A stretch of 33,343 nucleotides of DNA. Source: Clostridia bacterium (GTDB taxonomy: Bacteria; Bacillota; Clostridia; Oscillospirales; CAG-382). The notes below the pieces were generated by a model that did no database searches, was not told the origin of the DNA, and saw nothing but the letters and a program-made list of their open reading frames with translations. Positions 20,749 to 27,420 of the stretch are shown piece by piece. The stretch spans positions 1 to 33,343 of the forward strand of contig JAFXDO010000049.1 of assembly GCA_017563195.1 (NCBI GenBank), read 5' to 3'. Each line of letters begins with the position of its first letter. The first letter of the stretch is position 1. The position numbers and the translations under genes were made by a program.

Positions 20749-21783
20749 ATGGAAAAGCTTTATGGATTGATTGAAAACCTTACCTCGTATCCCGGTGTTT
20801 CGGGCTTCGAGGATATGGCGTTTGACGGTCTTTGCAAATATATCGAGACGCTCGGTATCTTCGACGAGACCGGTACGACCTCTGTCGGCAGCTTCTACGG
20901 CATTGTGAGGTGCGGTAAGGAAAACGCACCGCTCGTGCTATGTGACGCGCATCTTGACACCGTCGGCTTTGTCGTTACCGAGGTCTGTGAGGGCGGATTT
21001 TTGAGAATTGCGCCCATCGGCGGCATTGCGGCGAAGATACTTCCCGCCGCAGAGATCAACGTATACGGAAAGGAAATTGTAAAGGGCGTATTCGCATCCA
21101 AGCCCCCTCATCTTCAGGAGGCGGGCGAAAGTGAACGTAAAATGACGGTCGAGTCGGATATCAGCATTGACACCGGTTTGCCCTACGAAAGGCTTAAGGA
21201 GCTTGTACGCGTCGGTACCCCCGCAGGATTTCCTTGTAAGCTTACAAAGCTTTTGGGTGATAATCTCGCAGGTGCGGGCTTTGACGACAGACTTTGCGGT
21301 GCCGCTGTTATAAGGGCATTGCAGATGGTTGATAAGGAGTCGCTTAACGTTGACGTTGCATTCCAGTTCTCGGGTAACGAGGAGACCGGCTATAAGGGCG
21401 CAATGACCACGGCATACCGACTCAACCCCGATAAAGCAATCGTAATCGACGTTACTCACGCGTTCGTTCCCGGTGCACCCAAGATAAGAGAGGGCGTTCG
21501 CGCAGGCAACGGCTGCAATATTTGCTTCTCTCCGCAGACCAACCGTGCCTTCACCAAGCAGGCAATCGCGATTGCGGAATCCGAAAATATCCCGTATCAG
21601 CTTGCGGCGGCACCCGGAAGAACAGGCACCAACTCCAATGCCGTTCAGACCACTCGCAACGGCATTCCCACACTTCTCGTATCTATTCCGCTTAAGAATA
21701 TGCACACTATGAGCGAGATCGTAAATATGAATGACGCACTCAACACTTCGCGACTCATCGCGGCGGTGCTCAAATCGATGTAA
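20749..21783 (+). CDS. M42-family metallo-aminopeptidase (paralogue 1)
   Basis: A 344-residue co-catalytic metal aminopeptidase of the M42 family (TET/PepA-like, usually large cytoplasmic dodecamers). Metal and catalytic motifs in order are DAHLDTVGF (His ligand), AGFDDRLCG (bridging Asp), GNEETGYKGA (catalytic Glu and Glu ligand), IDVTHA (Asp ligand) and KNMHTMSE (His ligand). The first motif has TVGF where most relatives have EIGF or EVGF, and an ENGC-like GNGCNICFS segment is present. AAGGAGG precedes the ATG. It is the first of three tandem paralogues and the most divergent of them. Confidence 0.93.
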   Translation: MEKLYGLIENLTSYPGVSGFEDMAFDGLCKYIETLGIFDETGTTSVGSFYGIVRCGKENAPLVLCDAHLDTVGFVVTEVCEGGFLRIAPIGGIAAKILPAAEINVYGKEIVKGVFASKPPHLQEAGESERKMTVESDISIDTGLPYERLKELVRVGTPAGFPCKLTKLLGDNLAGAGFDDRLCGAAVIRALQMVDKESLNVDVAFQFSGNEETGYKGAMTTAYRLNPDKAIVIDVTHAFVPGAPKIREGVRAGNGCNICFSPQTNRAFTKQAIAIAESENIPYQLAAAPGRTGTNSNAVQTTRNGIPTLLVSIPLKNMHTMSEIVNMNDALNTSRLIAAVLKSM

Positions 21784-21796
21784 GGAGGAGAACGCT

Positions 21797-22816
21797 ATGC
21801 TCAGATATCTCGAAAAATATTGCAACCTCCTCGGACCGTCGGGAATGGAGGACGCTGTTCGTGAGGCTATAATTGACGACATCAAGGACTCGGGCGCAGA
21901 ATATGAGACCGACCCTATGGGCAACCTTATCGTTTTTAAGAAGGGTAAAAAGAGAAGAGACAAGAAGGTTCTGTTTTCGGCTCATACCGACGAGGTCGGA
22001 TTTAAGGTCAAATATATCGACGAGGACGGATATCTTTGGTTTGATGCCGTCGGCGGTATCGACCGCAGAGTCGTCAGCGGCAGAAGGATTGTTTTCTGCG
22101 AAAGCAACGTTCGCGGTGTTGTTGCATCTAAAGCAATTCATATGCAGACCCTTGAGGAAAGGGGTAAGTGTGAGCCCATAAGCGAAATGCATATGGATAT
22201 CGGCGCTGACAGCCGCGAAACCGCAAGTAAGTATATCACCGTCGGTGATTGCGCTACTTTTGAGCCAAATTACGAGGAATTCGGAGAAGGGCTTGTACGC
22301 TCCAAGGCGCTTGACGACAGATTCGGATGCGCCGTGCTCGTTGCTATGATCAACAGTGAGCTTGAATACGACACCTACTTCGCCTTCAACACCTGTGAGG
22401 AAATAGGCTGTGACGGCGCAAAGGAGGTAGCTCACCGCTTGAGACCTGATATCGTAATTGCGCTTGAGGCAACTACCGCAGGCGATATAGTCGGTGTACC
22501 AAAAAACAGATGCGCTTGCTCGGTAGGTAACGGCGCAGTGCTTTCGCTGATGGACAGAAGCACCATTTACAGCAGGGATCTCGTATTGCTTGCAACCGAG
22601 GTTGCCGATGAAAAGGGAATCAAGTGGCAGTATAAGAACGTTGTCGCAGGCGGTAACGAGGCGGGTGCATATCAGCGTGCCGCAAGCGGTGCTGAGGTTC
22701 TCGCCATAAGTGCACCTGCAAGATATATCCACTCTGCATCCAACGTACTTTCGATAGAAGATATGAAGGCTGTTGCCGATCTTGCCTCGGCATTGAACGA
22801 AAGGAGCTTTGAATAA
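21797..22816 (+). CDS. M42-family metallo-aminopeptidase (paralogue 2)
   Basis: A 339-residue M42 peptidase with SAHTDEVGF, KALDDRFG, TCEEIGCDGA, ALEATTAGD and ARYIHSASN at the five metal/catalytic positions. The fourth position has Glu (ALEAT) in place of the Asp seen in paralogues 1 and 3 (DVT), which may alter metal binding or substrate range. The ATG at 21797 has AAGGAGGAG upstream; an earlier in-frame start would overlap the previous gene. The stop overlaps paralogue 3 by one base. Confidence 0.93.
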   Translation: MLRYLEKYCNLLGPSGMEDAVREAIIDDIKDSGAEYETDPMGNLIVFKKGKKRRDKKVLFSAHTDEVGFKVKYIDEDGYLWFDAVGGIDRRVVSGRRIVFCESNVRGVVASKAIHMQTLEERGKCEPISEMHMDIGADSRETASKYITVGDCATFEPNYEEFGEGLVRSKALDDRFGCAVLVAMINSELEYDTYFAFNTCEEIGCDGAKEVAHRLRPDIVIALEATTAGDIVGVPKNRCACSVGNGAVLSLMDRSTIYSRDLVLLATEVADEKGIKWQYKNVVAGGNEAGAYQRAASGAEVLAISAPARYIHSASNVLSIEDMKAVADLASALNERSFE

Positions 22817-23811
22817 TGCTTAATCTTGTTAAAAAATATCAAAACGCGTTTTCTGTGTCGGGCTATGAATCCGAGCTCGCGGGAATTATTTCTAAGGATC
22901 TTGCTTCGGTCTGGGACGGCATTTCTCTTGATCCTATGGGCAACCTTATAGTATTCAAAAAGGGTAAGGACTCCTCAAAAAAGCTTATGATAGCGTCTCA
23001 TATGGACGAAATCGGCTTTATGGTCGTCAATATTGAGGAAAGCGGTATGATCCGCGTTGCCCCCATCGGCGGTATTAATGCAATGGCTTCCTGCTATCAT
23101 AACGTTAGGTTCCAAAATGGTGTGACGGGTATTCTCGTTGTTGAGGATGGCACTCGCGCGGCTGATCTCAATGCAAATAAGCTTTTCGTGGATATCGGTG
23201 CCGAAAACGCAGCTAAGGCAAAGCGCAAGGTCAAGGTAGGCGACGTCTGTGCGCTTGCCCCCATGTTCAAGAAGCTTTCCAACAAGAGATATGCCTCCAA
23301 GGCGTTTGACGACAGAGTCTGCTGTGCTATTTCCGCATATGCGGCGCTTAACTGTAAGACTCCCGCATACGATACGTTTTTCGTATTTACCACTCAGGAG
23401 GAGGTTGGCTGCAGAGGCGCGAAGCCCTCTTCGTTTACGGTTATGCCCGATTATGCAATAGCACTTGACGTTACTCCCGCACCCGCTTGCGGTAATCCCA
23501 GCCACCTCACGGCTAAGCTTGGTAACGGTGCAGCTATAAAGATCAAGGATTCCTCTGTTATATGCTCTCGTAAGATGGTAGACAGACTTACCGATCTTGC
23601 AGAGGCAAACGGAATCAAATATCAATACGAGGTGCTTCTCGCCGGCGGCACCGATACCTCTCAAATGCAGATTGCAGGCGCAGGCAGCCACGCTTGCTGT
23701 ATCTCCCTGCCTACAAGATACGTACACAGCCCCGTCGAAACGATTGACGTTGACGACCTGAAGGCTTGCGCAGATCTTCTTATCGCATTTATCGAAAACG
23801 GCGCCGAATAA
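22816..23811 (+). CDS. M42-family metallo-aminopeptidase (paralogue 3)
   Basis: A 331-residue M42 peptidase with a complete set of motifs: IASHMDEIGFM, KAFDDRVCC, TQEEVGCRGA, ALDVTPAP and TRYVHSPVE. The middle of the protein lacks several residues present in paralogue 2. It starts at the last base of paralogue 2 (TAATG), indicating cotranslation. Three different subunits encoded together could assemble into mixed TET-like complexes with complementary specificities, as known for archaeal TET peptidases; that is inference here. Confidence 0.94.
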   Translation: MLNLVKKYQNAFSVSGYESELAGIISKDLASVWDGISLDPMGNLIVFKKGKDSSKKLMIASHMDEIGFMVVNIEESGMIRVAPIGGINAMASCYHNVRFQNGVTGILVVEDGTRAADLNANKLFVDIGAENAAKAKRKVKVGDVCALAPMFKKLSNKRYASKAFDDRVCCAISAYAALNCKTPAYDTFFVFTTQEEVGCRGAKPSSFTVMPDYAIALDVTPAPACGNPSHLTAKLGNGAAIKIKDSSVICSRKMVDRLTDLAEANGIKYQYEVLLAGGTDTSQMQIAGAGSHACCISLPTRYVHSPVETIDVDDLKACADLLIAFIENGAE

Positions 23812-25105: not shown

Positions 25106-26800
25106 TTATTCGAAGCACTCTACGGTGCCGAGATAGAGCGGGGTCAGCGTATAGTTGTCAATAACCATATACACAAACGGACTGTTTGCGATAAAGAGTC
25201 TTGAATAATCGGGCTGAAACTCGGTGTTAGTGTATGCTTCATCGCCGTTTGAAATTCCGTTTTCATTAACGCTGATTTCGGTATGATTCAGAATTTGCGA
25301 AATATAGATGTCCGAATTTGTGATCCTGCCAAAATCTCCGTCTTTGTCAAATGCGTTGGAAAATTTCATATTTTTAAGCGATTCTGCGATATTACCTTCG
25401 GCTTCGATTGTAAAAGTTGGCATCATAAATCCGCAGGAGCCGTAGTCGCCGTCGAGGTACATCTGTTTAAAATAATCGCTGTCGAGTTTGTCAATAATAT
25501 CCTCTAAGGCAATGCCGTCATTTGGGAGGAGAACTACCATACTGAGCCCGTACTCTAATCCGATGACAACGCCTTCGCAATCGATATTTTCGAAAGAAAA
25601 ATTGACCATTCCGGTAATCATATCAACTTCGGTTACGAATCCGTTGGATTGCATAAACCCCTGCTTTTCGTCAAGCAGCTTGACACGATTTCTCCACTTG
25701 ACAGCAAGCTTGAAATCGGTAGCAAAAATGCATTTTGCGCTTCTTTCGATGCCGCTCAGCACTTCGTTGAGCGCACCGTTGTACCATGCGTCGATCGCTT
25801 CTGCCAAGCTGCTGCTGAAATGCGTTTTAAAAGCGTCCAAACCGTAACACTGATAAACGGTTTTCAGAAAATCAACGTCGATACTCAAGTCGCCGTCGAA
25901 CCAGACGGCACCGTCAAGGCTTGCGTCTGCGTCTGCTTGCAATCTGTCTTTCAGATTCTTAAAGACCCGATTAATGCTTTTGATATCTTCGCTGCCCAAA
26001 GCATCGATAAGCTGCTCGTGTGTTTCATTTCCTGCACCGTTGGCAATGCAGGAGAGTATATATGAAACCGAGATAGGGGAGAGAACGTTGTTTTTGCCGC
26101 TCTCGTACATGCTTGCAAACACGTTATAGCCGAAATCGTTGATGCCCGACAAAGTCTCTTTGTCAGTGATTGTATCGTCGGGCGGTAACGGTGTATTCTC
26201 AGACTCTGAGCCATCGGGAACGTCTTCGTATTCTTCATTGTCGTTACCGACTTCACTATCGACATCTTCTGAAGAGTCTTGACTGATATCCTCGCCTCCG
26301 GAATTGTACGAATCTCCGAACAGCGAGTCCATAATATCAACGTATCCCTCATTGACAAAAATATCGTCGGGTGTGATCACGTAGTCATCGTTGACGGGCG
26401 GCACGGGCTCGGGAGTGTCATCCGGGTTGCCGTCAGGCGTTTCGTCGGGCTGAGACTCATCATTGACATTCGGTTCATCGTACCTATCGTTGTCGTCACC
26501 GGTGCTTCCGTCTTCTTTTTCTTCCGATTGATCCGGAATGAAGTCGATCTCGTTATTCTTCGATTCCTCCTGCGTTTCATCAACGATACCGTTAGAGTGC
26601 GCCTTGTCCTCCGCAACGTATCCGTCGTTTTGGAAAACATTGAAGAATCCGCTGTTTGTTGCAAATACGGTGAACATCATAATGCAGACCAAAAGACCTG
26701 CAGCCCAAGACGTATACTTCCTTCTCATCGTGGCTTGGTGCCTTTGCATTTTGGCGAGCTTGTCGTCAACGAGCTTTTTGAATTCTTCGTTATTTCTCAT
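25106..26800 (-). CDS. Membrane-anchored serpin-domain protein, putative anti-sigma factor
   Basis: A 564-residue protein from the chosen start. Residues 1-29 are charged and cytoplasmic (EEFKKLVDDKLAKMQRHQ), 30-48 form one membrane helix, and about 55-212 are a very acidic Asp/Glu/Pro/Ser linker. From about 215 to the end is a full serpin domain: NNVLSPISVSYILSCIANGA (helix B motif), THEQLIDALG, VDFLKTVYQCYGLDAFKTHF, then EISVNENGIS and SPFVYMVIDNYTLTPLYLG. The hinge reads ENGISNGDEA where inhibitory serpins have small residues (GTEAAA-like), so trap-type inhibition is doubtful. It overlaps the ECF sigma gene by 11 bases; GGAGGAGG inside that gene places the start at 26800 rather than 26809. 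This is anti-sigma architecture with a serpin ectodomain. The anti-sigma role is inferred from context. Confidence 0.85.
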   Translation of the reverse strand: MRNNEEFKKLVDDKLAKMQRHQATMRRKYTSWAAGLLVCIMMFTVFATNSGFFNVFQNDGYVAEDKAHSNGIVDETQEESKNNEIDFIPDQSEEKEDGSTGDDNDRYDEPNVNDESQPDETPDGNPDDTPEPVPPVNDDYVITPDDIFVNEGYVDIMDSLFGDSYNSGGEDISQDSSEDVDSEVGNDNEEYEDVPDGSESENTPLPPDDTITDKETLSGINDFGYNVFASMYESGKNNVLSPISVSYILSCIANGAGNETHEQLIDALGSEDIKSINRVFKNLKDRLQADADASLDGAVWFDGDLSIDVDFLKTVYQCYGLDAFKTHFSSSLAEAIDAWYNGALNEVLSGIERSAKCIFATDFKLAVKWRNRVKLLDEKQGFMQSNGFVTEVDMITGMVNFSFENIDCEGVVIGLEYGLSMVVLLPNDGIALEDIIDKLDSDYFKQMYLDGDYGSCGFMMPTFTIEAEGNIAESLKNMKFSNAFDKDGDFGRITNSDIYISQILNHTEISVNENGISNGDEAYTNTEFQPDYSRLFIANSPFVYMVIDNYTLTPLYLGTVECFE

Positions 26801-27350
26801 TGTCATCATCCTCCTCCAAAATGCTTTTTAAGGCTTTTTTGCCTCTGTATATCAGATTTTCTATCTGCTTCTTGTTTTTGTGCATAACTCTTGCCGCTTC
26901 TTCATACGAGAGATCTTCGAAATACACGAGATGTATGGCGATCCTGTAATCGTTTGGTAGCTTTTTCATTGCTTCGTGTAGGTGCTTTTTTTCTTCATCT
27001 GCTATGACCGAATCCTCAAGTGATCTTTCGTCGTCAGTCGGCTCGTGATATAGCTCGTCAAGCGGAATATATGATCTTTTGGTCTCTTTTCTCAGCCAAT
27101 CGAGCGCACGAGACCTACCTATCATATACAGATAGGTTTTCAACGTAACTTTGAAATTGTACTTTTTCGGTTTGAAAATAATGTACGCGAAAACGTCTGC
27201 CGCGATATCCTCGGCAACGTCTACGTTGTTTACGTAGCGGTTGATAAAGAACGTAAGGCTTGTTCGGTATGTGTTCATTATTTCCTCAAAGGCAGCTTCG
27301 TCACCCTCGAGAAACCGTGCGTACAATGCAGCTCCGCGATCGTTGTTCAT
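26790..27350 (-). CDS. ECF-type RNA polymerase sigma factor
   Basis: A 186-residue group 4 sigma factor. Region 2 is visible as FINRYVNNVDVAEDIAADVF, then LKTYLYMIGRSRALDWLRKE (-10 recognition). After an acidic connector, region 4 reads LPNDYRIAIHLVYFEDLSYE, then EAARVMHKNKKQIENLIYRG (-35 recognition helix-turn-helix). The start at 27350 has GAGGT upstream; an earlier ATG at 27368 lacks a ribosome site. Its 3' end overlaps the membrane-anchored serpin gene, the usual arrangement for an ECF factor and its anti-sigma. I found no convincing autoregulatory ECF promoter in the upstream 190 bases. Confidence 0.95.
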   Translation of the reverse strand: MNNDRGAALYARFLEGDEAAFEEIMNTYRTSLTFFINRYVNNVDVAEDIAADVFAYIIFKPKKYNFKVTLKTYLYMIGRSRALDWLRKETKRSYIPLDELYHEPTDDERSLEDSVIADEEKKHLHEAMKKLPNDYRIAIHLVYFEDLSYEEAARVMHKNKKQIENLIYRGKKALKSILEEDDDNEK

Positions 27351-27420
27351 TTTTGACCTCGTGTACACCGGGCTTCATAGTGTTATACGTATGAGTTTCG
27401 AAAAACACTCTCTTGATTTT

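Follow-up and report, generated by a model that had tools for sequence, protein, structure and literature searches.

Anti-sigma factors with sensing ectodomains are known, and among the closest described systems is the SigV/RsiV pair of Bacillus subtilis and Clostridioides difficile. In the parts of the source consulted, RsiV consists of a short tail, a single helix at residues 37-59, and a lysozyme-binding ectodomain made of DUF4163/DUF3298; ligand sensing by this ectodomain is followed by regulated proteolysis, in which both signal peptidase and a site-2 protease cut (PMC4183432). The RsgI proteins of Clostridium thermocellum place various CBM and GH sensing ectodomains on a common anti-sigma module, and SigI/RsgI control cellulosome and cellulase genes, according to excerpts of two sources (PMC12484212, PMC3413522). 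In Bifidobacterium breve, also a gut bacterium, a protease-inducible two-component system adjoins the serpin operon and raises serpin through envelope signaling; the portions of the source at hand do not describe it as carrying a serpin sensor (PMC8012564). Other gut and clostridial serpins of the same fold, namely tengpin, miropin, the siropins, and C. thermocellum PinA, are given no sigma or anti-sigma role in the sections consulted (PMC5127057, PMC12484212).

Here, we describe a locus in which an ECF sigma factor gene is followed by a gene for a membrane protein that ends in a serpin. It lies in a window of 33,343 nucleotides, by which we mean the whole stretch of DNA that was analyzed. The locus resembles SigV/RsiV in pairing an ECF sigma factor with a single-pass, short-tailed partner, but a serpin and a long acidic linker stand in place of DUF4163/DUF3298, and release of the sigma factor by proteolysis is our proposal. 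With SigI/RsgI, it would share a sensor that matches its product in kind, serpin and serpin, in a comparison that is our own. However, the RsgI family is defined by an RsgI N-terminal domain, for which Pfam gave no match in the window protein, the ectodomain is a serpin, and SigI belongs to a different sigma family from the window ECF sigma factor. A serpin as the ectodomain of an anti-sigma factor is apparently new, as no such system was found in the portions of the open-licence literature on serpins and sigma/anti-sigma factors that were covered.

Organization of the sigma factor/serpin locus

The sigma factor gene occupies 26790..27350 on the minus strand (ATG at 27350, stop ending at 26790) and encodes 186 aa, with the size and regions of an ECF (group 4) sigma factor and Pfam matches above cut-off to Sigma70_r4_2 (3.9e-13) and Sigma70_r2 (2.2e-08). 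The next gene on the same strand (25106..26800, 564 aa) starts at an ATG at 26800 after a GGAGG and has a stop ending at 25106; two more in-frame ATGs lie upstream of this start, at 26806 and 26809. It was annotated as an anti-sigma/serpin gene from its Pfam Serpin match and the adjoining sigma gene, directly downstream of which it takes the position expected of an anti-sigma factor. The 11-base overlap between the genes (26790-26800) that the original prediction had described is borne out by the coordinates. The window assembly (G000) is 1.7 Mb in size and 73% complete, with three serpins. Three other genomes of the same genus carry orthologous sigma factors with 75% (G003), 75% (G008), and 69% (G006) identity to the window sigma factor, and the fused gene adjoins the sigma gene in all three, overlapping it by 4 bases in two and lying 1 base apart in the third. 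Elsewhere in the window, at 20749-23811, there are three adjacent M42-type aminopeptidase genes, two of them Pfam-confirmed and the third assigned by resemblance alone, and a methionine gamma-lyase-like gene sits between this trio and the sigma/serpin operon.

The second protein has the single-pass layout of an anti-sigma factor by hydropathy, with a short tail, one helix, and an outer domain. Its basic cytoplasmic tail (residues 1-29, 26714..26800, minus strand, as for all features of this protein) is the putative sigma-binding segment, judging by the co-variation of tail and sigma factor over 26 pairs described below. A single membrane helix follows at about residues 30-48 (26657..26713, from hydropathy only), then an acidic linker of about 169 residues with 54 D/E and 5 K/R by residue count (26144..26656), and finally the serpin domain (25121..26143). 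The serpin fold is complete by sequence: the Pfam Serpin match (PF00079, 2e-49) covers profile positions 3-367 of 370, and the domain can be aligned over its full length with 2pef, a bacterial serpin of solved structure (E 9e-27). Tengpin 2vh4 gives the same match (E 1.3e-26), and miropin was also matched. Hydropathy, Pfam, and the alignment to 2pef agree with a cytoplasmic segment of ~29 residues, one membrane helix, and a full serpin domain, as first proposed from the sequence; the linker is acidic as claimed, but it measures 169 residues rather than ~155. In the three orthologues, the linkers have 134-164 residues, 37-48 of them acidic.

A Pfam scan of the serpin protein at E up to 0.1 returned only Serpin and a sub-threshold DUF4179. 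Membership in the DUF4179 family was rejected at 14.4 bits against a cut-off of 30.1, as were the RsiV and RsgI families, since the same scan found neither DUF4163/DUF3298 nor the RsgI N-terminal domain. We also looked by eye for a site-1 motif of the RsiV kind, similar to a signal-peptidase site and following the helix, but nothing that looked consistent across the sequences was seen.

Co-variation of the tail and exchange of the ectodomain

To judge which part of the fused protein follows the sigma factor, we compared distances across 26 fused pairs. Tail distances tracked sigma distances closely (Spearman r 0.64; partial 0.62, permutation p 0.001), and serpin-domain distances did so far less (r 0.24; partial 0.14, p 0.088), where partial values hold the other distance constant and some shared ancestry remains in the figures. 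Contact between tail and sigma factor would be expected to produce co-variation of this kind, and the contrast between a high value for the tail and a low one for the serpin would fit, as expected, an anti-sigma module with an exchangeable ectodomain. Such an exchange is seen directly at two loci (L176 and L177), where a tail and sigma factor like those of the serpin-bearing L032 are joined to a different, non-serpin ectodomain. In what we call split operons, the serpin is separate from the anti-sigma protein, which carries its own ectodomain; this middle gene has the same layout as the fused proteins, with a tail that is sometimes almost identical (e.g., MRELNECKAEILRRSENRIKERRRKR in the middle gene of L081 vs MREINEYTAEVFRRSENRIKARKRKR in the fused L086). 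A tree of 133 sigma factors (26 fused, 45 split, 39 with no serpin, 23 unlabeled) requires nine changes of the fused label, at least five of them forced by well-supported branches in what is a quick tree with long branches, and so fusion, loss, or both have occurred repeatedly. From these comparisons, the serpin-tipped protein is very probably the anti-sigma factor of the ECF sigma factor. The anti-sigma role first suggested by gene order is thereby upheld by adjacency in 3/3 orthologues, by tail/sigma co-variation, and by the occurrence of a related tail on a non-serpin ectodomain next to a closely related sigma factor.

The window's own genome contains a second ECF operon (contig C75, locus L043, 1-2584) made up of a sigma gene, a small single-helix protein, and a lipoprotein serpin. 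Its sigma factor is 56% identical to that of the window, and its upstream motif reads AAGGAACTT before CGTATAA.

Recurrence of the pairing

We surveyed 63 genomes of the window's family, 40 of which have serpins, and compared the surroundings of all 67 serpins found. In 27/67 cases, the serpin belonged to a fused protein encoded immediately after an ECF sigma gene, a count that includes one locus (L045) with a 62-residue sigma fragment at the end of its contig and three (L040, L041, and L046) whose serpin ORF starts were placed too far upstream by the mechanical ORF caller. Another 14 were the third gene of a split operon (sigma, small single-helix protein, serpin), and four lay 1.0-2.1 kb behind a sigma gene, three as the second serpins of a tandem and one (L097) outside any tandem. 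The remaining 22 comprised 21 without a sigma gene nearby and one with too little upstream DNA. Homologues that consistently lack an adjacent sigma gene had been named at the outset as evidence against a sigma/serpin pairing; with 3/3 orthologues and 27/67 family serpins showing the adjacency, they do not consistently lack one. Many relatives encode the serpin on its own, either as the third gene of an operon or with no sigma gene in the neighborhood, and serpins are therefore probably outputs as well.

From the sigma side, an alignment search confirmed at least 447 sigma loci, and among the best 80 of these, all in named genomes and some in genomes shared with the 67-serpin set, six were fused, 34 had a serpin within 1.5 kb downstream, three had one further downstream, two had one upstream only, and 35 had none (seven of the 35 with under 1.8 kb of downstream DNA). 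A helix was called in 74/75 partner ORFs from these best 80 loci. Metagenome assemblies of Oscillospiraceae, Lachnospiraceae, and further Clostridia supplied nearly all of the 80, and many of these originate from the gut of goat, sheep, deer, or buffalo; the named isolates among them are Anaeromassilibacillus sp. An172 (L243) and Cuneatibacter caecimuris DSM 29486 (L255), both with the split operon. Single-linkage clustering of the neighbors of the 80 loci gave two large clusters, the sigma factors (71 loci) and a mixed group of 50 serpins and 55 unlabeled proteins (70 loci). The next cluster covered 14 loci, and outside the two large clusters no other conserved neighbor, such as a target protease gene, emerged from these 80. 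In two Lachnospiraceae loci (L237 and L264), a fused sigma-serpin pair lies directly upstream of a second sigma/single-helix pair.

Across the order, serpins were found in 149/297 genomes. Among the best-scoring serpin loci at this level, 6/19 were split operons and 13/19 had no sigma gene in the available upstream DNA, whose length lay between 1 and about 1,350 bases. Of 20 loci chosen for long or low-scoring serpins, a choice that favors the fused form, 14 had this form, each with a tail and a helix preceding the serpin; it occurs in five other families of the order (f12, f13, f15, f19, and f24).

Reactive-loop hinge and divergence of the serpin domain

Inhibitory serpins have a hinge at P17-P9 that resembles ExGTEAAAA, in the portion of the source consulted (PMC8233489). 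By hinge alignment, the window serpin reads ENGISNGDEA at this place (25235..25264, minus strand), which is non-canonical and does not fit the inhibitory pattern, and the G003 orthologue reads ENGTMDADKV and is likewise not inhibitory. Among 93 complete hinges in 97 aligned rows, these two were the only ones with fewer than three small residues at P12-P9. The other orthologues have inhibitor-like hinges (EKGTLAASAT in G008, EFGTVAAASS in G006), most fused relatives retain small-residue hinges, and the lipoprotein serpins of the predicted regulon described below have intact ones (ERGTRAGAVT, ERGTKAGAAT, and ELGTKAGAVT). Charged hinge residues hinder loop insertion. With its inhibitory hinge lost, the window copy is therefore probably not a suicide inhibitor or classical loop-insertion trap; most of its relatives could be.

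The anti-sigma-borne serpin domain also diverges widely, with 27-35% identity between genomes where the sigma factor retains 67-78%. Lipoprotein serpins are closer to one another between genomes, at 49-52%. Fast divergence of the ectodomain is also our supposed reason for the empty result of a genome-contig scan with the single serpin protein, in which 15 stretches matched the pattern and none was confirmed.

Two further features of the hinge and loop were observed. Fused loci from the order-level set (L299-L315) mostly have hinges like EEGVTAAAYT, with an aromatic residue at P9, vs EKGTKAGAAT in many lipoprotein serpins. The reactive loops of several lipoprotein serpins (L043, L085, L095, and L050) contain a recurring stretch of the EM..EC type around the expected P1, a hint that they share a target protease with a preference for acidic residues.

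A shared promoter motif and the predicted regulon

A predicted ECF promoter, GAGTGTTTTT-N11-CGTATAA, lies upstream of the operon at 27383..27410 on the minus strand and was recognized as a motif shared upstream of window-type sigma genes. Searched as GTGTTTTT-N11-CGTATAA, it has five exact copies in the window's own genome and one more with one mismatch. Allowing up to two mismatches gave 19 matches vs 14 for the reversed control, and because this is close to background, only the first six sites were retained. Across 24 genomes of the genus, there were 15 exact copies, 13 of them in the four genomes whose sigma factor is at least 69% identical and two in the other 20, with none for the reversed motif; the genomes compared are 61-99% complete, and the four sigma-bearing ones may share the motif by descent. 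Each of the 13 copies is followed, 14-34 bases on, by the mechanically called start of an ORF with 181 aa or more. The two copies outside the sigma-bearing genomes, in G021 and G022, begin with AAG rather than GAG and precede ORFs that by eye look like one dGTPase-like gene; they were set aside as unrelated.

The genes behind the motif recur between genomes. It precedes the sigma operon itself in the window's genome, G006, and G008, with a looser copy at the G003 sigma operon, and a lipoprotein serpin in the window's genome, G003, and G008 (about 47% identical). The window's genome and G003 share it before a dockerin protein (35% identical; dockerin by Pfam in the former) and before a D,D-carboxypeptidase (60%; Pfam in the former). 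The window's genome and G008 share it before a lipoprotein whose copper-amine-oxidase-like match falls below cut-off (43%) and before a secreted protein with a dockerin-like end by similarity (56%), where the copy is exact in G008 and has one mismatch in the window's genome. From this co-occurrence, we infer that the window sigma factor uses these promoters, and the prediction for three genomes is that a sigma factor held by a serpin-tipped anti-sigma factor turns on a secreted serpin. Cohesin matches were also found on five contigs of the window's genome (C42, C63, C69, C68, and C48), four of the five over cut-off, and these are in keeping with the dockerin proteins predicted to belong to the regulon. 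Another class of motif (TGAAACC or TGCAACC, then GACGRGTAT, ACGGTATAT, or similar) stands before the sigma genes of L084, L095, L101, L034, L037, and L049, the partners of which have a second type of tail.

Proposed circuit and alternative explanations

Taken at slightly better than even confidence, our reading is that the ECF sigma factor and its single-pass, serpin-ended anti-sigma factor form a protease-response circuit in which the serpin acts as bait or receptor. The sigma-brake part of this reading is well supported. The rest is proposed, namely that the tail binds the sigma factor, that proteolysis releases it, that the signal is a protease, and that sensing falls to the serpin. Counting against the reading are the non-inhibitory hinges of the window and G003 copies, the split operons in which the serpin is a separate protein, the 21/67 family serpins and 13/19 best-scoring order-level loci that show no sigma gene, and the 35/80 sigma loci that show no serpin. 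The basic cytoplasmic tail would hold the sigma factor at the membrane until an extracellular protease, from the host, the diet, or a neighbor, engages or cuts the serpin/linker ectodomain. The ectodomain would then be shed, or opened to a site-1 cut, after which a site-2 (M50) protease would cut within the membrane and free the sigma factor. Once freed, it would turn on its own operon, the lipoprotein serpin with an intact inhibitory hinge, the dockerin-bearing secreted proteins, another lipoprotein, and the D,D-carboxypeptidase. Given its degenerate hinge, we expect the window copy to work as a receptor or bait and not by suicide inhibition, with inhibition falling to the secreted serpin. 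Since the linker is flexible and 134-169 residues long, a signal passed by shape change alone is unlikely, and ectodomain shedding followed by an M50 cut is favored over a purely mechanical signal. An M50 protease match is present in the window's genome (188.7 bits), but such matches also occur in 14/14 control genomes, and its presence is therefore weak evidence.

The same data could be arranged differently. The anti-sigma factor might be real but respond to another trigger, such as membrane or wall stress or a regulated site-1 protease, with the serpin as inhibitor cargo that is shed on cutting and whose gene is induced with the operon. Serpins do appear as plain outputs, as the third gene in 14/67 family loci and as lipoproteins behind the same motif, and most fused copies keep the small-residue hinge that such cargo would need. 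Yet that hinge has been lost from the window and G003 copies but retained in the lipoprotein serpins of these two genomes, and the anti-sigma-borne serpin is more divergent (27-35%) than the lipoprotein serpin (49-52%), so that we consider inhibitor cargo unlikely. The degenerate hinge of the window copy fits another reading, in which the serpin fold binds a ligand other than a protease, such as a peptide, polysaccharide, or hormone-like molecule, and the loop is irrelevant. Ligand binding by the RsiV ectodomain can license site-1 cutting, in the parts of the source consulted (PMC4183432), and the dockerin proteins in the predicted regulon and the cohesins in the genome are compatible with such a ligand. 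Against it are the small-residue hinges of most fused relatives and the serpin within the predicted regulon itself, and we regard a non-protease ligand as rather unlikely.

In a further arrangement, the serpin would guard the anti-sigma factor that carries it: it would inhibit whichever protease attacks the linker, and the system would fire only when the protease exceeds the guards. The long, exposed acidic linker beside the serpin and the inhibitor-like hinges of the G006 and G008 orthologues are in line with this, but a guard would be unworkable in the window copy, whose hinge is degenerate, and the linkers of some relatives are short (in L096, the helix is at about 42-60 and the serpin starts from about 88); this arrangement is improbable. 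Chance adjacency is very unlikely because the sigma/serpin pairing recurs in the family and the order, and the overlapping frames, the co-variation of the tail, and the common motif also argue against it and against a misjudged operon with no regulatory link between sigma factor and serpin.

Implications for serpins in gut bacteria

Returning to the protease-response circuit, we extend it only tentatively to the serpins of gut Oscillospirales at large. These might be extracellular protease receptors, such that an anti-sigma-fused serpin reports an attack across the membrane and a secreted serpin answers it, with the copy of the window lineage as a dedicated, non-inhibitory bait. The literature sampled acknowledges that what bacterial serpins do is still an open question. 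If the reading is true, a widespread serpin-tipped anti-sigma factor would place serpins in the bacterial signaling network with a role that can be tested, would offer a modular extracellular protease sensor, and would provide a molecular entry point to the ways in which gut commensals may perceive the proteases of hosts or neighbors. Serpins are the family that animals use to trap proteases, and our findings suggest that such bacteria may both sense and answer proteases with one toolkit.
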